NCBI GenBank assembly: GCA_021163525.1
Contig: JAGGTX010000095.1
Coordinates: 1 to 16,721 of the forward strand
From: Caldifarciminota bacterium
Lineage (GTDB): Bacteria > Hydrothermota > UBA3072 > B12-G15
Length of the DNA: 16,721 bases
Reading direction: 5' to 3'
Part shown: positions 4,785 through 16,331 of the stretch, piece after piece
How the letters are laid out: every line of letters starts with the position of its first letter
Numbering within the stretch: the stretch's first letter is position 1
Made by a program: the position numbers and the translations under genes
Notes under the pieces: generated by a model
Told to the model about the DNA's origin: nothing
The model's database searches: none
Seen by the model: only the letters and a program-made list of their open reading frames with translations

Positions 4785-5901
4785 ACTCGTCCTGGGCATA
4801 CCTGTCTGTCATACCAGCAATGTAATCACATACCACCCTCTCTGGTGGAAATTCTTCAAGCATGGCATAAAACTGGGGAGGAAGTTGTTTAAGGTTCTCC
4901 ATATAGACATTGAAGAGTGCCTCAATGTATCTCTTTGCCTTTTCCTGCATCTTAATCACCTTGTAGTGGGTGTAGAGATTTTCGTAGAGAAACTTCTTCA
5001 AAATGCCATTCTTCTCCCTCATCTCAGGGCTGAAGTCAATCAAAACATCACACTCCCTCACATCATCCACACTCTCAACACCTGCCTTTTTAATCATCTC
5101 AAGGGAGTTTTCAATCACATCGTGTATCTGCATACCAATAAATTCCCTGATTGCCTCATATACCCTCTTTTCCCTGTCCTTAATGTGGAATGCCTTTTCA
5201 TACAATTCCCTGAAAAGGGGAACGCTTTCAAGTATCTGTTCAAGCGTTATATTCCCTGATTTCAAGCCATCATCAATGTCATGGGCATTGTATGCAATCT
5301 CATCTGCAAGATTCACTATCTGAGCCTCAAGTGTAGGGCTTTTATCAGGAAGGAATTCATCCGGCAATCTATCCGGGTTATCATAACTTGTTTTATGTTT
5401 TGCAATGCCCTCCCGTGTTTCAAAGGTAAGGTTCAGCCCTCTGAATTTTTCGTACTTGTTTTCAAGATAATCAACAACCCTCAACCCCTGCATGTTGTGT
5501 TCAAATCCACCCTTGCCTTCCATTATTTCATGGAGCTTTGCCTCGCCTGCATGGCCAAAAGGTGTATGACCTATGTCGTGTGCAAGGCTGATTGCCTCTG
5601 CAAGGTCCTCATTCAGTCTCAGTGCCCTTGCAATGGTTCTTGCCACCTGTTGCACCTCTATTGTATGAGTGAGCCTTGTCCTGTAATAGTCACCTTCGTG
5701 GTTAACAAACACCTGTGTTTTGTATTCCAGCCTCCTGAATGCAGTTGAATGAATTATTCTATCCCTGTCCCTCTGAAACTCTGTCCTGAAATGGGGAGGG
5801 TCTTCTGGATGCTTTCTCCCCCGAGTATCACTGCTCTTCATACCATAGGAAGCAAGTGTCTTCTTCTCTATGTCCTCAAGCATCCTTCTATAATCCATCA
5901 T
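4750..5901 (-). CDS. dgt: dGTPase-like HD-domain deoxynucleotide triphosphohydrolase
   Basis: A 383-aa cytoplasmic HD-superfamily enzyme that hydrolyses dNTPs (classically dGTP) to the deoxynucleoside plus triphosphate. Family motifs: RDRDRIIHSTAFRRLEYKTQVF (residues about 44-65), the metal ligands H79 in RTRLTHT, H108-D109 in LAHDIGHTPFGHAGE, and D200 in NLADEIAYNAHDIDD. The C-terminal region DYIAGMTDRYAQDEYARLF is typical of the bacterial deoxyguanosinetriphosphate triphosphohydrolase-like branch. The ATG at 5901 overlaps the pduL stop as ATGA; a second ATG follows at once. It is embedded between microcompartment and LPS-export genes in one apparent operon. The substrate may be broader than dGTP. 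Confidence 0.92.
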   Translation of the reverse strand: MMDYRRMLEDIEKKTLASYGMKSSDTRGRKHPEDPPHFRTEFQRDRDRIIHSTAFRRLEYKTQVFVNHEGDYYRTRLTHTIEVQQVARTIARALRLNEDLAEAISLAHDIGHTPFGHAGEAKLHEIMEGKGGFEHNMQGLRVVDYLENKYEKFRGLNLTFETREGIAKHKTSYDNPDRLPDEFLPDKSPTLEAQIVNLADEIAYNAHDIDDGLKSGNITLEQILESVPLFRELYEKAFHIKDREKRVYEAIREFIGMQIHDVIENSLEMIKKAGVESVDDVRECDVLIDFSPEMREKNGILKKFLYENLYTHYKVIKMQEKAKRYIEALFNVYMENLKQLPPQFYAMLEEFPPERVVCDYIAGMTDRYAQDEYARLFYPFTRM

Positions 5902-6716
5902 CTTCTATCAATAATAACACCCTTTGAAAGCCCCAATTCAAGGGCAAGGGGTGTGATAATTGTTCCCTTAACAAGTATTATCTTCAACCCCTTCTCCTCT
6001 GCCTCCCTCACATCAACCTCTGTCACAAGCCTCCTTACAACCTCCCTTTTTTCAGGCACCTTCACCTCACCTTTTTTCTTCAGGAGGTAGCAAAGGTCAC
6101 CTGTTTTTACACCTGCAGCATTTGCCTCATCAAAGTCAATGTGAAAATCAAGCCTGTAATTCTCGCTGACCCTTATAAGCACCTCATCAAAGATAAGTTT
6201 CCTCTCATCACCACAAACAACCCTCACAATCTCTCCATCAACAACATTATACTCCTTTGCATCCTCAGGGGTCATGTGTATATGCCTCTTGGCAATGATT
6301 ACCCCTTCAGGAATGGTGACAGATCCTGCAGGACCTACAATTGTTATACCTTGTGTTCCATCAAGGTCACCAGAATCCCTGATTGGTGGATTCAATCCAA
6401 GTCTTCTTGCATCCGTGAAGGAAATTTCAACCTGGGTTCTGCTCCTCACAGGCCCCAGTATCCTGACATTTTCAATAACGCCACGAGGACCAACCAGTGT
6501 AACCCTTTCCTTTGCTGCATACTGCCCTGGTTGTGTCAAGGGTTTATCCTCTGTTAACTGGTAATCCTTACCAAATATCACATCAAGGTCTTCTCTGGAG
6601 ATATGGAGATGCCTTCCAGAAACACCTATGGGAATGGGTCTTGATGAGGGCATAAGCCCGACAAGTTCCTGTTCAATAATCTTCTTTACAACCTCAACTA
6701 TCCTGCTGTCCTTCAA
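5898..6716 (-). CDS. pduL: PduL-type phosphate acyltransferase with C-terminal extension (microcompartment)
   Basis: A 272-aa enzyme that converts acyl-CoA plus phosphate to acyl-phosphate, recycling CoA inside a bacterial microcompartment. Residues 1-22 (RIVEVVKKIIEQELVGL) form an amphipathic helix, the usual encapsulation peptide, followed by a short linker. The two PduL beta-barrel domains carry the metal-binding histidines H36/H38 (GRHLHIS), H145/H147 (KRHIHM) and H192 (DFHID); RSRTQVEIS near 91-99 is also typical. Canonical PduL ends near residue 213; here about 60 extra residues follow, containing RRLVTEVDVREAEEKG and VKGTIITPLALELGLSKGV. That tail resembles short segments seen in EutQ/EutT-like microcompartment proteins; this comparison is from memory. 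It starts at a TTG overlapping the aldehyde dehydrogenase stop (TTGA). Confidence 0.93.
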   Translation of the reverse strand: MKDSRIVEVVKKIIEQELVGLMPSSRPIPIGVSGRHLHISREDLDVIFGKDYQLTEDKPLTQPGQYAAKERVTLVGPRGVIENVRILGPVRSRTQVEISFTDARRLGLNPPIRDSGDLDGTQGITIVGPAGSVTIPEGVIIAKRHIHMTPEDAKEYNVVDGEIVRVVCGDERKLIFDEVLIRVSENYRLDFHIDFDEANAAGVKTGDLCYLLKKKGEVKVPEKREVVRRLVTEVDVREAEEKGLKIILVKGTIITPLALELGLSKGVIIDRR

Positions 6717-8221
6717 CTGGAAAGTCCCCGTTCTTTCAAAAACCTTCTGACTATTTCCTCAATCTCTGCCTCTGTAAGGGTTTTCTCGGTCTCAATTGGT
6801 CTGGAGTGTTCAAGGTGTGCTATTTCCTCTGCAGGTCTTCCATCAGGGACTGCCCTCTTCTTGAACTCAAGTTCCATTGTTGGGTATGCAAGCCTCTTTA
6901 TGTTCATCAGATGCATGGGGCCAACATTATCGGAGGTGATTCCTCCACCCATTGCACCACATCCCAGGGTCATTGAGGGTTCAAGCCCTGTTGTAAGACC
7001 TATTGCACCATGTGTTCCACCCGTGTTCACAAGTATCCTGAATGCTGGCTTTTTCAGTGCAAACTCCCTTATTACATCCTCATTCTGTGAATGTATCACA
7101 AGGGTATGCCCAAGTCCTCCTGTTTTCAGCACCTTTATGCACAACTGACAACCTTCCTGCCAGTCCTCAACCTCAAAGTATGCGAGAACAGGGGAGAGTT
7201 TCTCCTTTGAAAGTGGAAAGTTTGGTCCAACTCCTCCGGGTTCTGCTATCAGGACAATTGTATCGGGTGGAACACTTATCCCTGCCTTGCTTGCAATGAA
7301 CTGGGCAGTCTGCCCCACTATATCTGGACTGGGAAGTCCCTTGGAGGAAAAGATAACCTTTTCAACCTTTGAAGCCTCTTCAGGGGAAAGGAAATATCCA
7401 CCCATTTCCCTGAATGCCTCACGCACCTGTGGTGAGATAACCCTGTCCACAATAACATTCTGTTCTGAGGCACAAACAGTGCCATTATCAAATGTCTTGC
7501 TTGCAAGGATTGCTGAAACAGCCTTCCTTATATCTGCGCTCCTCTCAATGTAAGCAGGCACATTACCAGGGCCAACCCCTATGGCGGGCTTTCCTGAAGA
7601 ATGGGCAGCCTTCACCATTGCAGAACCACCCGTTGCAAGGATAAGGTCAATGTTCGGGTCACGCATCAGGGCATTTGAACCCTCTTTTGTTATTATATCC
7701 ATGCAGAGGATTGAGCCTTCAGGTGCACCTGCCTTAACCGCTGCCTCATGCAGTATATCTGCTGCAGCCTTAGAACAGTTTACAGCCTTTGGGTGCGGTG
7801 CAAAGACAATTGTATCCCTTGCCTTTAGAGAAATCAGCGCTTTGTATATCACGGTTGATGTGGGGTTTGTTACAGGTGTAATCCCCATAATTGTTCCCAT
7901 GGGTTCTGCAATCTCGTATATCTTCCGTTCGGGAAACTCCCTAATAAATCCGACGGTCTTTATATCCTTAATCCACTGATAGACATTCTCCGTGGCAAAT
8001 CTGTTCTTTGTAACCTTATCCTCATATACACCCAGTTTCGTCTCCTCAATGGCCATCTTTGCAAGGGATTCGGCATTCTCAAGTGCAGCATCCCTCATTG
8101 CCTTAACAATGGCATCAATCTTCTCCTGGGTGAATTCAGCAAGCACCCTCTGTGCCTCCTTTGCCCTCTTTGCAAGGTCTCTTGCCTGCTGTATTGAGAG
8201 AAGGTCTTTATCAAGGTTCAA
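6713..8221 (-). CDS. CoA-acylating aldehyde dehydrogenase (PduP/EutE-like, microcompartment)
   Basis: A 502-aa NAD-dependent enzyme oxidising an aldehyde to its acyl-CoA. Motifs: TPVTNPTSTV (residues about 115-124) of the acylating class, IGVGPGN near 214-220, and the catalytic cysteine C250 in FDNGTVCASEQ. The last 22 residues (481-502, TLTEAEIEEIVRRFLKERG) are predicted to be an amphipathic helix after a linker beginning near IETEK, as expected of an encapsulation peptide. Together with pduL directly downstream this makes the aldehyde to acyl-CoA to acyl-phosphate core of a microcompartment. Start: TTG at 8221, preceded by AGGAG at a six-base spacing and overlapping the shell-gene stop (TTGA). 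The aldehyde chain length cannot be told from sequence. Confidence 0.93.
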   Translation of the reverse strand: MNLDKDLLSIQQARDLAKRAKEAQRVLAEFTQEKIDAIVKAMRDAALENAESLAKMAIEETKLGVYEDKVTKNRFATENVYQWIKDIKTVGFIREFPERKIYEIAEPMGTIMGITPVTNPTSTVIYKALISLKARDTIVFAPHPKAVNCSKAAADILHEAAVKAGAPEGSILCMDIITKEGSNALMRDPNIDLILATGGSAMVKAAHSSGKPAIGVGPGNVPAYIERSADIRKAVSAILASKTFDNGTVCASEQNVIVDRVISPQVREAFREMGGYFLSPEEASKVEKVIFSSKGLPSPDIVGQTAQFIASKAGISVPPDTIVLIAEPGGVGPNFPLSKEKLSPVLAYFEVEDWQEGCQLCIKVLKTGGLGHTLVIHSQNEDVIREFALKKPAFRILVNTGGTHGAIGLTTGLEPSMTLGCGAMGGGITSDNVGPMHLMNIKRLAYPTMELEFKKRAVPDGRPAEEIAHLEHSRPIETEKTLTEAEIEEIVRRFLKERGLSS

Positions 8222-8667
8222 TTTTTACTCCTATTTTCCATCTCCCTGAACAACTTCAGAAGTGTTTCCCTGTTTGCGTTTGAAATCTCTCTACCTGAAA
8301 GTGGAAATCCATCGGTTCTCCTTGCAATCTCCCTCAACTCCTTCACGGTCATCTCCTCAAGGGGTTTTGACCTTTCCATGCCAGGTCCACGGGAGATGGA
8401 TTTAATCACCTTCTCTGTTTCAACATCAGGGTTGGGTATCACATGGGCAGAGATAAGTTGTCCAACCCTGCTCGCCGCTGCTGCACCTGCATCCACAGCA
8501 GCCTGACATGCGGCAGTGGTTCCCCTCACTTTCACCATCACCATTCCACCCGTGGTGATTTCATAACCAACAAGGGTAACTTCTGCAGCCTTGAGCATGG
8601 CATCGGCTGCCTCAATCACCCCCACGAGTCCGAGGGTCTCCACCATTCCAAGTGCATTATCTTCCAA
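8218..8667 (-). CDS. BMC-H shell protein with C-terminal Rho_N/SAP-like extension
   Basis: 149 aa. Residues 5-85 are a BMC domain (hexameric shell subunit): LGMVETLGLVGVIEAADAML, the pore loop EITTGGMVMVKVRG, and AASRVGQLISAHVIPNP. A linker of about 20 residues is followed by residues 103-142, LEEMTVKELREIARRTDG, then SGREISNANRETLLKLFREM. This pattern fits the Rho N-terminal/SAP-type helix-extension-helix fold. In that family it binds nucleic acid or mediates protein contacts; its role on a shell protein is unknown to me. The pore loop differs from the first shell protein (TTGG versus IGGG), so the two hexamers probably pass different molecules. Start TTG at 8667 is supported by GGAGG six bases upstream, inside the last codons of the preceding shell gene. 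Confidence 0.9.
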   Translation of the reverse strand: MEDNALGMVETLGLVGVIEAADAMLKAAEVTLVGYEITTGGMVMVKVRGTTAACQAAVDAGAAAASRVGQLISAHVIPNPDVETEKVIKSISRGPGMERSKPLEEMTVKELREIARRTDGFPLSGREISNANRETLLKLFREMENRSKN

Positions 8668-8668
8668 G

Positions 8669-8971
8669 TTATGCCTCCCTCTTTATTCCACCACCAGGAA
8701 GAATGCTCTCAACCTCAATATGGGGTCTTGGTATCACATGCACGGATACAAGTTCCCCAACCCTGCTTGCTGCTGCTGCTCCTGCATCTGTTGCAGCCTT
8801 CACAGCTCCAACATCACCTCTAACAAACACGGTTACATAACCACCACCAATCTGCTCCTTACCAATAAGGTGAACCCTTGCAGCCTTAACCATTGCATCG
8901 GCTGCCTCAATCGCACCTACCAACCCTTTTGTTTCTACCATTCCAAGTGCAATTCCCATTTTATCTTCCAT
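8669..8971 (-). CDS. BMC-H microcompartment shell protein (PduA/EutM-like)
   Basis: 100 aa, a single BMC domain of canonical length, forming hexameric tiles of a bacterial microcompartment shell. Characteristic segments are [20 protein letters not shown] (residues about 7-26), the pore loop [20 protein letters not shown], and [15 protein letters not shown] (about 70-84), then a short GGGIKREA tail. The pore has three glycines where PduA has GSG. The start ATG at 8971 has a strong Shine-Dalgarno AGGAGG (8977-8982) at a five-base spacing. It is the first recognisable gene of the minus-strand microcompartment operon, followed after one base by the second shell gene. Confidence 0.96.
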
Positions 8972-11790: not shown

Positions 11791-13425
11791 TTATTCTATG
11801 TTCAGTTCTTTGAGTTTTCTCCAGAGTGTGGAGCGGGATATACCAAGTATCTTGCTTGCCCTGGTCCTGTTATTGTTTACACTTTTCAACACCCTGAGTA
11901 TGTGCTCCCTTTCAATATCCTCCAGACTGACTGCACCAGATTCACATTCTTCAAAAAGGTAATCAGGCAGGTTGTCAAACCTTATCAATTCTCCCCTGGC
12001 ATGGATCATGGCATGCTCAATCACATTCTCAAGTTCCCTCACATTCCCTGGCCATGAATAGTCAAGGAGAAAATCCATAACCCTCTGTTCAACACCTTTG
12101 ACCCTTTTGTTGAATTTTTTATTAAAAACCTCAATAAAGTGGTCAAGGAGAAGGGGTATATCCTCTGCCCTTTCCCTCAATGCAGGAAGCTTTATCCTTA
12201 CAACATTCAATCTGTAATAAAGGTCCATCCGGAATTTCCCTTGCTCCACAAGTTCTTTAAGGGGTCTGTTTGTGGCAGCAATCACCCTCACATCCACCTT
12301 TCTACTTTTCACTTCGCCAAGCCTTTCAAACTCTTTTTCTTCTATCACCCTCAATATTTTTGCCTGGAGTGAGAGTGGCATATCCCCTATCTCATCAAGG
12401 AAGATGGTTCCACCATCTGCAGCCTCAAACTTCCCCATTTTATCCATCACCGCACCTGTAAATGCGCCCTTCTTATAACCAAAGAGTTCACTCTCAAGGA
12501 GATTTTCAGGGATTGCCGCACAGTTTATTTTCACAAAGGGTTTATCCTTCCTCATTGAATTGTAGTGGATTGTTCTTGCGATCAAATCCTTACCAGTTCC
12601 TGTCTCCCCTTCAATAAGAACATTTGAGTCTGTTACAGAGATCACCTCAAGTTTGTCATAAATAATCTGCATACAATCAGACTTCCCTATAATGTTTCCG
12701 AATGAAAACCTGTGTCTTACCTCGTTCCTCAGCCTCACAATCTCGGACATATCCCTGAATGTCTCCACACCACCTATTATCTCACCCTTTTCATCATAGA
12801 GAATCGCAGTATTCACAGATACAGGGATTCTTTTCCCATTCTTTGTTATAATTTCCATTTCATAATTTGAAACATTTTCCCCTGTCTCAAGTGTTTTTCT
12901 CAGGGGACAGGGATCTGCATCTGGTGACCTCATCACCTCACTGCAGTTCTTACCCAGAACCTCTTCCTTTTTATACCCTGTGATGTGTTCTGCTGCCTTG
13001 TTAAAAGAAGTTATCCTGAACTGACTATCAACAGTAAACACACCATCAAGTATGGATTCAAGGATTGCCTCCTTGAAGTTTCTTTCCTGTATGAGTTGCT
13101 TCAGGAGAAAGAGGTACTCAAAAATATTCCTGATAACGAAAAGGTATTGATTTGTTTTTCCCTCTGGTGATTTAACAGGGTTCACAGAAACAAGAACCTT
13201 GATTGTCATTCCTTCCCTGGTCTTCATCCCTGTCTCAACAGCCGAGATTACACTATTATCAATTTTCTCAAAATAAGGTAGTATCTCCTTTATCTCTTTC
13301 CCCATCAGTTCATCAGGTGAAAAACCTGTTATTCTCAGAATTGCCTGATTAAAGTTAATGATTTTCAGGTTATCATCAGTGATTATAATGCCGTCAGCGA
13401 GAGCATTGACTGGATTCCATTCCAT
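11791..13425 (-). CDS. Sigma-54-dependent transcriptional activator (PAS-PAS-AAA-Fis HTH)
   Basis: A 544-aa bacterial enhancer-binding protein. Residues about 6-115 and 122-235 are two PAS sensor domains. The AAA+ domain follows from about 242, with Walker A GETGTGKD at 273-280, the sigma-54 contact loop GAFTGA at 320-325, Walker B GGTIFLDEIGDM and the arginine finger region RMDLYYRLNV. A Fis-type helix-turn-helix closes the protein (NNNRTRASKILGISRSTLWR). No receiver domain is present, so control is likely by ligand or redox sensing through PAS; PAS 2 carries cysteines in GKNCSEVMRSPDADPC. Its ATG lies within the 3' end of the upstream ATPase gene (43-nt overlap). As last gene of the NifX/MinD operon it is the obvious candidate regulator of the sigma-54-like promoter at 16359-16374. 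Confidence 0.95.
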   Translation of the reverse strand: MEWNPVNALADGIIITDDNLKIINFNQAILRITGFSPDELMGKEIKEILPYFEKIDNSVISAVETGMKTREGMTIKVLVSVNPVKSPEGKTNQYLFVIRNIFEYLFLLKQLIQERNFKEAILESILDGVFTVDSQFRITSFNKAAEHITGYKKEEVLGKNCSEVMRSPDADPCPLRKTLETGENVSNYEMEIITKNGKRIPVSVNTAILYDEKGEIIGGVETFRDMSEIVRLRNEVRHRFSFGNIIGKSDCMQIIYDKLEVISVTDSNVLIEGETGTGKDLIARTIHYNSMRKDKPFVKINCAAIPENLLESELFGYKKGAFTGAVMDKMGKFEAADGGTIFLDEIGDMPLSLQAKILRVIEEKEFERLGEVKSRKVDVRVIAATNRPLKELVEQGKFRMDLYYRLNVVRIKLPALRERAEDIPLLLDHFIEVFNKKFNKRVKGVEQRVMDFLLDYSWPGNVRELENVIEHAMIHARGELIRFDNLPDYLFEECESGAVSLEDIEREHILRVLKSVNNNRTRASKILGISRSTLWRKLKELNIE

Positions 13426-14273
13426 ATCCTTTTTAATTCCTCCTTAATTCCATGCTCAACATCACCCTCAATTATGGTTTTCCTCTGAAGAAGCGCCTCT
13501 ACAATCCTCCTTGAAAATGGTATCTCTCCAAGTATCTTTATGCCATTCTCACTGGCAAACTCCTTTATCCGTTGAACCATATCAGGGTTTATATTACTCT
13601 TGTTTATCACAATTGTAAAGGGAATATTAAAGAATGTTGATAGTTCATAAACCCTGATAATGTCATGTATTCCTGAAAGGGTGGGTTCCACAATACCCAC
13701 AGTGAGTGATACCCCTGTGATGGTTGAAATCACAGGACAACCAACACCAGGAGGTCCATCAAGTATTATAAGGTCTTTCTTTGCATCGTCAGCCACGGCC
13801 TTTGCCACAACCCGCAACCTGCTTACAAGTTTTCCAGAGTTCTCCCTTCCAGGGAAAAGTCTTGCATGGACGAATGGACCGAATCTTGAGCGCGATATAT
13901 AGAGCTCACCCGAAATATCCCTTCTCACCTCAATAGCGTCAAATGGACAGACTCTCCAGCATACACCACAGGCATCGCACTTAAATTCATTGAAAACCGG
14001 TTTCATATCCACTATTTTGATGGCATCAAACCTGCAATTTTGCTCACACAATCCACATCCTGAGCATTTATCAGGTATATAAACGGGGAATCTTGGTCCT
14101 TCAAAATCCTCTTTTTTAAGAAGTTCCGGTTCCATAACAATGTACATATCAGGGGCATCAACATCTGCATCAACGAAAACTGCTTTGTCTTTCAGTAGAG
14201 AAGCAAGTCCAAGCGTAATCGTTGACTTTCCTGTTCCCCCCTTTCCACTTACAATGGCAACTTCCTTTATCAT
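13383..14273 (-). CDS. MinD/Mrp-type ATPase with inserted 2x[4Fe-4S] ferredoxin domain (second copy)
   Basis: 296 aa from ATG 14273. The SIMIBI-class P-loop VSGKGGTGKST (residues about 8-18) carries the deviant Walker A lysine; VFVDADVDAPD follows near 32-42. A ferredoxin insertion has two clusters: C70, C73, C76, C80 (KCSGCGLCEQNC) and C99, C102, C105, C109 (KCDACGVCWRVCP). The Walker B region is LIILDGPPGVGCP. Proteins of this group handle Fe-S clusters or electrons and often sit beside NifX-like proteins; the exact role is not established. I prefer ATG 14273 over 14297 because it overlaps the upstream stop as ATGA and places the P-loop at the usual distance. It overlaps the sigma-54 activator downstream. 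Confidence 0.92.
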   Translation of the reverse strand: MIKEVAIVSGKGGTGKSTITLGLASLLKDKAVFVDADVDAPDMYIVMEPELLKKEDFEGPRFPVYIPDKCSGCGLCEQNCRFDAIKIVDMKPVFNEFKCDACGVCWRVCPFDAIEVRRDISGELYISRSRFGPFVHARLFPGRENSGKLVSRLRVVAKAVADDAKKDLIILDGPPGVGCPVISTITGVSLTVGIVEPTLSGIHDIIRVYELSTFFNIPFTIVINKSNINPDMVQRIKEFASENGIKILGEIPFSRRIVEALLQRKTIIEGDVEHGIKEELKRIWNGIQSMLSLTAL

Positions 14274-15103
14274 ACCATTTCCCTTATTCTCTCCCACAGT
14301 TTTTTTATCTTCTCCCTGTATTCTGGAAGCACATCAACAAGTGGAATGCCCTTTGAATATCCAACCGCAATCTCCCTACTGAATGGTATTTCAAGAAGCA
14401 CAGGAAGCCCCAGCCCACTTATCTTCTCCTTCACCTCTTTTGAACCAAGGTCTGCCCGGTTTATCACAATTCCTGCCTTTAATTTCATGTCCCTTACTAT
14501 CTCAACAGATATTTCAAGGTCTGAAAGACCAAAAGGTGTGGGTTCAGTGATCAGAATGACAAAATCAGTGTCGGAGATAGACTGAACAAATGGGCATGAG
14601 GTCCCTGGTGGTGCATCCATAATAATGTCACCGGATACCATTCCATACTCTTTTTTTATGTGCCTTATAAGTGGGGTTGAAAGGGCTTCAGTCAATTTAA
14701 GATAGCCCATTATATACTCAATCTTATCCCTTTTGCCTATGGATATTTCACCAATAACATACGGCCTTTCACTTATTGCATTTTCAGGGCATGCAAGTTT
14801 ACATGAAGCACACCCATGGCATAGTTTCTCAAAGACATTCACCGTGTTTGAACCCACAAATATCGCCCCAAACTCACATGCCTTTGCACATTCACCACAA
14901 TATGTACAGCGGTTGAAGTCTATTTCTGGAACAGGGATTGAGAATGGTATTCTCTCCCTGATGTCTGGTTTTATAAAAATATGAGCATTGGGCTCCTCTA
15001 CATCAAGGTCAAGGTATCTCACATATTCAAGTGTAAGGGCAAGGGAGGTTGAAAGGAGTGTCTTTCCCGTGCCTCCCTTTCCACTTCCAATGACTACCTT
15101 CAT
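14270..15103 (-). CDS. MinD/Mrp-type ATPase with inserted 2x[4Fe-4S] ferredoxin domain (first copy)
   Basis: 277 aa. P-loop GSGKGGTGKT at 6-15, then LDLDVEEPNAH near 31-41. The ferredoxin insertion has cysteines C66, C69, C72, C76 (RCTYCGECAKAC) and C95, C98, C101, C105 (CHGCASCKLACP). The Walker B segment is IIMDAPPGTSCPFV, followed by LITEPTPFGLSDL. It is a paralogue of the next gene, and both are read as a coupled pair: this one starts as ATGA over the stop of the NifX-like gene and ends as ATGA over the start of the second ATPase. The two probably form a hetero-pair or act in sequence on an Fe-S or metal-cluster substrate; that is inference from the arrangement. Confidence 0.92.
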   Translation of the reverse strand: MKVVIGSGKGGTGKTLLSTSLALTLEYVRYLDLDVEEPNAHIFIKPDIRERIPFSIPVPEIDFNRCTYCGECAKACEFGAIFVGSNTVNVFEKLCHGCASCKLACPENAISERPYVIGEISIGKRDKIEYIMGYLKLTEALSTPLIRHIKKEYGMVSGDIIMDAPPGTSCPFVQSISDTDFVILITEPTPFGLSDLEISVEIVRDMKLKAGIVINRADLGSKEVKEKISGLGLPVLLEIPFSREIAVGYSKGIPLVDVLPEYREKIKKLWERIREMV

Positions 15104-15414
15104 CCACCCGCCATCTTCACCGCATCAAGCACTTTCCCAGTCACCCCTGTTATTACCCTGATTCCTGCTGCTGAAAGGGAGGATGTTGCATTTGGACCAA
15201 GGTTACCTGTAACAACAACATCAACATTCTTACTTTTGAGGAACTCCACAGCCTTTATTGCTGCACCACCAACCGCCTCCTTTGCTGGATTGGGAAAGGA
15301 ATTCCACTCACCCGTATCTGAATCGTATATTGCGAAAAAAGAACACCTTCCAAATCTGGGGTCAACCCCTGCGACATTGTGATTTGCCTCTGTAGCACTC
15401 ACAGCTACTCTCAT
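15100..15414 (-). CDS. NifX/NifB-type dinitrogenase iron-molybdenum cofactor family protein
   Basis: 104 aa, one domain of the family that binds Fe-S/Mo clusters in NifX, NafY and the C-terminus of NifB. Markers are the N-terminal strand MRVAVSA, VDPRFGRCSFFAIYD near residues 18-32 with its conserved cysteine, NPAKEAVGGAAIKAVEFL, and VVVTGNLGPNATSSLSAAGI near 66-85. No nif structural genes are in view, and these small homologues are widespread in anaerobes that do not fix nitrogen. The start is the second of two adjacent ATGs (15414; the other is 15417), because GGAGG then has a six-base spacing. The gene is coupled by ATGA to the first MinD-type ATPase. Confidence 0.93.
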   Translation of the reverse strand: MRVAVSATEANHNVAGVDPRFGRCSFFAIYDSDTGEWNSFPNPAKEAVGGAAIKAVEFLKSKNVDVVVTGNLGPNATSSLSAAGIRVITGVTGKVLDAVKMAGG

Positions 15415-15445
15415 CATCCACCTCCTTTTTCATCATGATACATGT

Positions 15446-16042
15446 TCAGCCTGAATTTTCAAGTTCCCTTATCCTCCTTTCAATTGCATCAAGTTGTCTT
15501 TTAAGCATCTCCGCCTGGGTCTTCAATATCTGAAGTTCTTCAGCAGGGTCCATCTGGGGTGGTGTCCATGGACCGAACCCCGGTCCAAAACCACCATAAG
15601 CACCAAATCCTCCAGCCCTGCCAAAACCACCACCTCTTCCGTAACCCCTTCCGTATCCCCCACCAAATCCTGCTCCCATTCCAAACCCTCCCGGCATAAA
15701 ACCACCTCCCACAGTTAAAGGTTGTAATTTATTCTCTTTATACATTCTTACTGCCTCTTCAACACTTGTATTTGGGCTTACAAAGACCCTTATCCCTGTT
15801 GTTCCAAGAACACCAGATGCATTTGGACCAACAGCACCTGTGATAATCACAGAAGCACCTGTCTGGAGTGCCATCTGTGCAGCCTGGATACCTGCACCAC
15901 TGGGCATCTGTGCATAAGGATTACTTATGGCTTCATACTCCATTGTTTCAGGGTCAACAAGTATAAAGTAGGCACACCTTCCAAGCCTCATGTCCACAGG
16001 GGAATCAAGGGTGGGCCCTGTGGATGTAACAAGTATTTTCAT
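15446..16042 (-). CDS. NifX/NifB-type protein fused to a glycine-rich linker and C-terminal coiled coil
   Basis: 198 aa from ATG 16042. Residues 1 to about 110 form a dinitrogenase Fe-Mo cofactor family domain (MKILVTSTGPTLDSPVDMRL, GRCAYFILVD, VIITGAVGPNASGVLGTTGI). Residues about 112-165 are almost pure Gly with Phe, Tyr and Arg (GGGYGRGYGRGGGFGR-type repeats). Residues about 166-198 (DPAEELQILKTQAEMLKRQL and onward) form a predicted coiled coil like that ending many DUF5320 proteins, so the gene looks like a fusion of the two neighbouring families. A 25-residue N-terminal addition from 16117 is possible but overlaps the upstream gene; ATG 16042 has GAGGG at good spacing, seven bases after the upstream stop. 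Confidence 0.88.
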   Translation of the reverse strand: MKILVTSTGPTLDSPVDMRLGRCAYFILVDPETMEYEAISNPYAQMPSGAGIQAAQMALQTGASVIITGAVGPNASGVLGTTGIRVFVSPNTSVEEAVRMYKENKLQPLTVGGGFMPGGFGMGAGFGGGYGRGYGRGGGFGRAGGFGAYGGFGPGFGPWTPPQMDPAEELQILKTQAEMLKRQLDAIERRIRELENSG

Positions 16043-16049
16043 TTTTCCC

Positions 16050-16331
16050 TCACTTATTCCCTGAGGTTTCAGTTTTCTGTGGATTGTAGGGCTCTGGAGG
16101 ATAACCCCAGTACCCATATGGATTCACATATGGGTTTGCATAAAAATAGGGATTGTATGCACCCCAGTAGGGATAAAATCCACCATAGGCCCACCTCCAT
16201 CCCCGTGGAAGACCTGTCCAGGGACAATAACCAAGCCTTGCACCAAAACCCCATCCTCTTCCGAACCACCAACCTCTGCCCCAACCTCTACCCCATCCAA
16301 AACCAGGACCATACCATCCATATCCAAACAT
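16050..16331 (-). CDS. Small aromatic and glycine-rich DUF5320-like protein
   Basis: 93 aa, with an extreme composition: Trp/Tyr/Phe plus Gly make up most of residues 1-80. The N-terminal half has GWGRGWGRGWWFGRGWGFG, then a single cysteine in LGYCPWTGLPRGWRW, which resembles the core of DUF5320 proteins. The second half is Tyr/Pro/Asn-rich (FYPYWGAYNPYFYANPYVN). It lacks the usual C-terminal coiled coil, which is instead found on the next gene. DUF5320 genes commonly neighbour NifX-like and MinD-type Fe-S ATPase genes; the function is unknown. Start: ATG 16331 with AAGGAGG (16338-16344) six bases upstream. It is the first gene of the operon and lies directly behind the sigma-54-like promoter. 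Confidence 0.82.
   Translation of the reverse strand: MFGYGWYGPGFGWGRGWGRGWWFGRGWGFGARLGYCPWTGLPRGWRWAYGGFYPYWGAYNPYFYANPYVNPYGYWGYPPEPYNPQKTETSGNK

Follow-up and report, generated by a model that had tools for sequence, protein, structure and literature searches.

What does the C-terminal tail of a bacterial microcompartment (BMC) shell protein do when that tail is itself a conserved domain? This question is raised by a 16,721-nucleotide contig of a Caldifarciminota bacterium (JAGGTX010000095.1, the whole of which is called the window here), in which a plain BMC-H gene is followed by a second BMC-H gene whose product carries such a tail. A preliminary description of the sequence had proposed that the tail is a Rho_N/SAP-like domain, which could tether the compartment to nucleic acid or the nucleoid, or bind a cargo protein. 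Here, we found that the tail occurs near-constantly on one BMC-H lineage, that it is probably a small, folded and conserved domain of ∼45 residues as judged from structure prediction, and that it resembles helix-extension-helix domains of the Rho_N/SAP type; its role as an outward tether is what we tentatively favor.

The C-terminal tail domain

The tailed protein was assigned to BMC-H on the basis of a single PF00936 domain (94.2 bits against a curated cut-off of 24.5), which the genome search placed at 8428-8655 of the window contig (C49). Two relatives, P0002 and P0003, have the same length of 149 residues. The preliminary description had located the module at 8218-8359, that is, residues ∼104-149 plus the stop codon on the minus strand, and both strings it had pointed out are present: MTVKELREIARRTDG as residues 106-120 and SGREISNANRETLLKLF as residues 124-140. 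A search aimed at residues 88-149 retrieved four proteins, and a search with the whole protein gave 3909 matches at E<=1e-10, 120 of them listed. In the file of 122 proteins (the query and 121 retrieved ones, ranked with the tail included in the query), the same C-terminal module was identified in 77 by a motif and a profile built from those found, so the earlier observation was real. L111, R112, A115, R116 and G125 were invariant in the 57 of these 77 proteins that were aligned at full length; in the same 57, V108, R126, I128, S129, A131 and L136 were conserved at >=90% and the GREISxAN motif was near-invariant. Basic residues were nearly fixed at R112, R116, R126 and position 133 (K/R).

Structure prediction by AlphaFold2 for the 50-residue tail alone gave a mean predicted local distance difference test (pLDDT) score of 93.8 and a predicted template modeling score of 0.76, with helices predicted at 9-18, 27-31 and 34-49 of this piece. 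In the full-length model, the only stretch with pLDDT <50 was residues 93-97, inside the linker. The contrary case envisaged beforehand, a short disordered tail without conserved residues, was thus not what we found: five residues are invariant, the fold is predicted with confidence, and disorder is ruled out by the models of both the tail alone and the full-length protein.

The assignment to Rho_N/SAP held in part. The predicted helices and the alignment of the tail profile with Rho N-termini are compatible with it, but every Pfam score fell below its cut-off, although both families were matched. For Rho_N (PF07498, cut-off 24.9 bits), the whole window protein scored 13.8 bits (a partial match at residues 103-116), the tail alone 16.2 bits and the best tail among relatives 22.7 bits; for SAP (PF02037, cut-off 23.9 bits), the tail alone scored 13.1 bits, and matches in whole genomes were weak. 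Rho_N and SAP were the commonest family matches of the tail. A sequence search of PDB gave weak matches only, none of 13 Foldseek matches reached E<=0.001, and PHROGs gave only endonuclease VII (0.0068, confined to residues 3-18). In terms of family matches, EutK_C was absent from the 12 Pfam families found at E<=0.1 in the 57 tailed proteins and from the matches of the window protein. A peripheral-subunit-binding domain was also considered; it was absent from the Pfam listings of the tailed proteins.

Distribution across genomes and link to BMC proteins

A DNA pattern of the conserved core, nearly equivalent to a protein motif that fits 67 of the 77 tails, was scanned over a collection of genome contigs and yielded at least 117 loci, 109 of which encode BMC-H and tail in one frame. 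Six of them (L042, L043, L080, L081, L087 and L093) were judged to be chance matches, having either no match to the tail profile or one of 14 bits. Although the tail was searched without reference to BMC, 109 of the 111 non-chance loci listed had it on a BMC-H protein. L037 is truncated at a contig end and its locus lacks a BMC part; in L096 the BMC part (1998-2349) and the tail part (2330-2657, minus-strand count) lie in two overlapping frames, which may reflect a sequencing error, decay or a frameshift. It should be noted that conservation figures from this locus set are inflated at the pattern positions because the loci were picked by that same pattern. The 111 loci came from 13 named phyla plus 11 records without phylum, the largest groups being Ignavibacteriota (42), Bacillota (17), Bacteroidota (15), Zixiibacteriota (7) and Rhodothermota (5). 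Confinement of the module to the lineage of the window is ruled out by the 77 proteins and at least 117 loci. One match was found in IMG/VR viral contigs (L003, 142-218, minus strand): an 89-residue, tail-like frame (31 bits) with no BMC.

Two genome samples showed how closely tail and BMC go together. Among 100 relatives of the window genome, the tail was present in four, and BMC in those very four; of 60 genomes from the phylum to which G061 belongs, 20 had the tail and 21 had BMC, and all 20 tails shared contig and frame length with a BMC match. The single exception in the latter sample was G187, which has BMC and BMC-P and no tail match. Taken together, the tail occurred in 24 of 25 genomes with BMC and in none of 135 without it, and it can serve as a sequence marker for such systems. 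In a tree built quickly from 196 BMC domains (87 columns, with many open forks), the label 'tail' required 6 changes; shuffled labels required 64.4, and none of 500 shuffles gave so few. Therefore, tailed and plain BMC-H appear to form largely separate lineages, though not one clean clade.

Gene neighborhood and shell genes

The features of the tailed gene and its neighbors in the window are listed in the table. The two BMC-H genes are one base apart, the dehydrogenase gene overlaps the stop of the tailed gene, and the PduL-type gene overlaps the dehydrogenase gene. By eye, the dehydrogenase has a C-terminal helix, and the PduL-type protein an N-terminal helix, resembling an encapsulation peptide; the latter protein also has ∼60 additional C-terminal residues (TIGR02536, weak match, 5.5e-6). 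Farther away (13383-16117), two ParA/MinD-superfamily ATPases with 4Fe-4S (ferredoxin) domains lie beside two Nitro_FeMo-Co proteins, an arrangement common to many anaerobes, and nothing suggests that they are part of the compartment.

Table. Tailed BMC-H gene, its parts and adjoining genes in the window
Feature	Coordinates	Strand	Evidence
Tailed BMC-H, whole gene, 149 aa	8218..8667	-	Open reading frame; TTG start
BMC (PF00936) domain of tailed BMC-H, residues 5-80	8428..8655	-	PF00936, 4.6e-27
Flexible linker, residues 89-99	8371..8403	-	pLDDT <50 at 93-97; linker lengths of relatives
Tail domain, residues 100-149, helix-extension-helix, Rho_N/SAP-like	8221..8370	-	
Plain BMC-H paralog, directly upstream of tailed gene	8669..8971	-	PF00936, 6.5e-30
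CoA-acylating acetaldehyde dehydrogenase	6713..8221	-	TIGR02518, 640 bits (cut-off 620)
PduL-type phosphate acyltransferase (transacylase)	5898..6716	-	PF06130, 6.7e-80

Plain BMC-H followed by tailed BMC-H is the recurrent unit: a second BMC domain lay directly upstream of the tail, 19-155 bases off, in 73 of the 104 evaluable loci listed and not in the other 31. Aside from BMC, no gene cluster exceeded 51 of the 111 loci. This number was reached by a cluster identified as YbbR from one representative (PF07949, 2e-7; for example, L092:209-1123), which lay <=300 bases from the tail gene in each of the 48 loci whose open reading frame call contained both. The other neighbors in these loci vary (Tmk and CtpA, PdxJ and others, by eye). 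The scanned window proteins did not include YbbR, and the gene strings of the 17 Bacillota loci lacked it as well. An aldehyde dehydrogenase gene comes directly after the tail gene in several Bacillota loci as well as in the window, and occurs in only 19 of the 111 loci (stretches of <=8 kb). In nine Bacillota loci (L012, L040, L069, L090, L091, L105, L109, L114 and L117), an extra, probably helical segment precedes the tail (by eye), and several of these operons contain genes from clusters represented by proteins with matches to EutQ and to an actin-like protein of the EutJ type.

The compartment genes of the window genome resemble those of FRAG, a class with BMC-P triplets and shell genes at as many as six sites, whose hosts include Ignavibacteriae, Gemmatimonadetes, Planctomycetes and candidate phyla and whose function is given as unknown (Sutter 2021, PMC8217296). 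The window genome, a draft (75.6% complete, 244 contigs) in which distances between contigs are not readable, has the BMC-H pair on C49, a BMC-P triplet in a row on C139 and a lone BMC-P on C45, adjoining a gene with a Complex1_51K domain that is PduS/RnfC-like by eye. On the other hand, the Bacillota tails sit in ordinary BMC operons, and the accessible part of the same paper mentions BMC-H C-terminal extensions of up to 200 residues and not this domain (PMC8217296).

We also examined BMC-P in the genomes of 100 of the 111 loci, leaving aside 11 loci from Bacillota in which a BMC operon was visible. BMC-P was present in 92 genomes, comprising 47 of 50 YbbR-linked and 45 of 50 other ones, and these counts led us to reject in general the idea of a tailed protein without link to any shell; it could apply only to the minority without BMC-P. 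No match was found in eight draft genomes of unstated completeness (L008, L010, L037, L015, L041, L068, L082 and L106). The BMC-domain score of the tailed protein was lower in these genomes (median 87.8 bits, n=7) than in those with BMC-P (131.1 bits, n=90; one-sided Mann-Whitney p 1.4e-4), whereas the tail score was equal (68.95 vs 69.25; one-sided p 0.62), in a comparison devised after the data were seen and on eight genomes that share ancestry and are not independent lineages. The BMC comparison omitted L037, which lacks a BMC part, as well as L016 and L066, whose frames are truncated by the locus boundary; it retained L020 and L021, whose 5' ends are likewise open, and frames cut at locus ends depress a few further BMC scores. 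Low BMC scores also occurred in some genomes with BMC-P (L024, L054, L027 and L089). In the 60-genome sample, BMC-P was not found in 4 of the 20 tail genomes (G055, G167, G173 and G178); in G055 (L015), G167 and G178, drafts of unstated completeness, the tailed protein was the sole BMC match. This result cuts both ways, and it suggests that the function of the tail can outlive the shell.

Possible roles and comparison with known systems

Several features bear on what the tail might hold. Net charge was positive in 102 of 112 tails (mean +3.2), whereas linkers and BMC domains were acidic on average, and linker lengths spanned 9-256 residues (112 relatives), a range expected of a tether. Together with the nearly fixed basic positions and the EutK and PduK literature discussed below, these features place a tether to nucleic acid or the nucleoid ahead of a protein partner, and from them we tentatively infer a flexibly linked tether that points outward. 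The helix-extension-helix tail would hang from one of the two BMC-H tiles of a FRAG-like compartment, six tails per hexamer would stand out from the concave face into the cytosol, and R112, R116, R126 and the K/R at 133 would bind to nucleic acid or the nucleoid; a compartment tethered in this way would be spread and inherited and not left at the pole, as proposed for EutK. However, the charge of the window tail is no more than +2, and that of Rho N-termini averages +0.7.

A close rival, somewhat less probable in our opinion, is that the tail is a protein-binding helix-extension-helix domain, much as LEM domains bind BAF, and links the compartment to a conserved partner protein that is either cytosolic or bound to the membrane. 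The near-invariant GREISxAN motif, the near-confinement of the tail to BMC-H proteins and the modest charge of the window tail would all fit, and YbbR might be such a partner. However, the absence of YbbR from the scanned window proteins and the Bacillota loci means that it is no general partner, no other cluster apart from BMC is more frequent, and the commonest family matches are to Rho_N and SAP.

An inward adaptor recruiting aldehyde dehydrogenase or another enzyme appears quite improbable. The dehydrogenase gene next to the tail gene could be taken in its favor, but extensions of this kind exit from the concave face, which is external (PMC11157265), the dehydrogenase and PduL appear to have encapsulation-peptide-like helices of their own, the dehydrogenase is infrequent among the loci, and retention of the tail where BMC-P was not found speaks against cargo loading. 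Cross-linking of shell tiles or neighboring compartments through binding of BMC proteins, in assembly or clustering, would agree with the frequent pairing with plain BMC-H and the co-occurrence of tail and BMC, but seems the least probable role, given the variable linker length and a tail score that stays the same in genomes with a drifted BMC domain and no BMC-P match.

The tether could be extended further: hexameric tailed BMC-H might, with no need of a ParA-type motor, tie FRAG-like compartments directly to the nucleoid, and shell-less lineages might keep it as a ring-shaped nucleic-acid-binding protein. This is based on the 8 of 100 genomes with no BMC-P match, among which the BMC domain, and not the tail, has drifted, and we consider it doubtful.

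Among known systems, the closest is EutK, in which one BMC domain is joined to a positively charged C-terminal domain that has been proposed to bind nucleotides and place the compartment; loss of EutK leaves compartments mostly polar (PMC12487888). Tailed BMC-H shares this design, with a single BMC domain and a C-terminal domain of positive charge. The C-terminal domain of EutK, however, is a helix-turn-helix of its own family, EutK_C, which was not among the families matched at E<=0.1 by the 57 tailed proteins, and tailed BMC-H is spread over many phyla. PduK is a BMC-H protein with a C-terminal extension on the outer face, described as flexible and of unknown function (PMC9132943) and as disordered (PMC12487888), and its loss confines compartments to the poles (PMC9132943). 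In contrast, the tailed BMC-H here ends in a conserved domain that is predicted to fold. To our knowledge, no common domain has been defined for the EutK and PduK tails. With the Rho_N/SAP domains, the tail appears to share the helix-extension-helix arrangement, and its profile aligns with Rho N-termini over 40-42 columns; it differs in ∼five residues inserted between the helices relative to the Rho N-terminal domain, in its own invariant Arg residues, in its sub-cut-off Pfam scores and in its fusion to a shell domain. The tail would serve the same end as McdAB of carboxysomes, spreading compartments over the nucleoid, but no ParA-type Walker motif was found in frames >150 residues of the 114 loci scanned, which did not include the window (McdA was not searched in whole genomes).

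Among the open-licence papers listed for microcompartments and BMC-H, we found no description of a Rho_N/SAP-like domain on BMC-H. Shell proteins with putative positioning tails are already known from EutK and PduK, which point to such tails in placing and inheriting metabolic compartments; what appears new here is a conserved, predictedly folded and putatively positioning tail, one domain of ∼45 residues on one tile of a large and enigmatic compartment class in many phyla. With a conserved domain, few invariant arginines and a natural tail-less paralog as a control, the question of placement becomes testable in this system.
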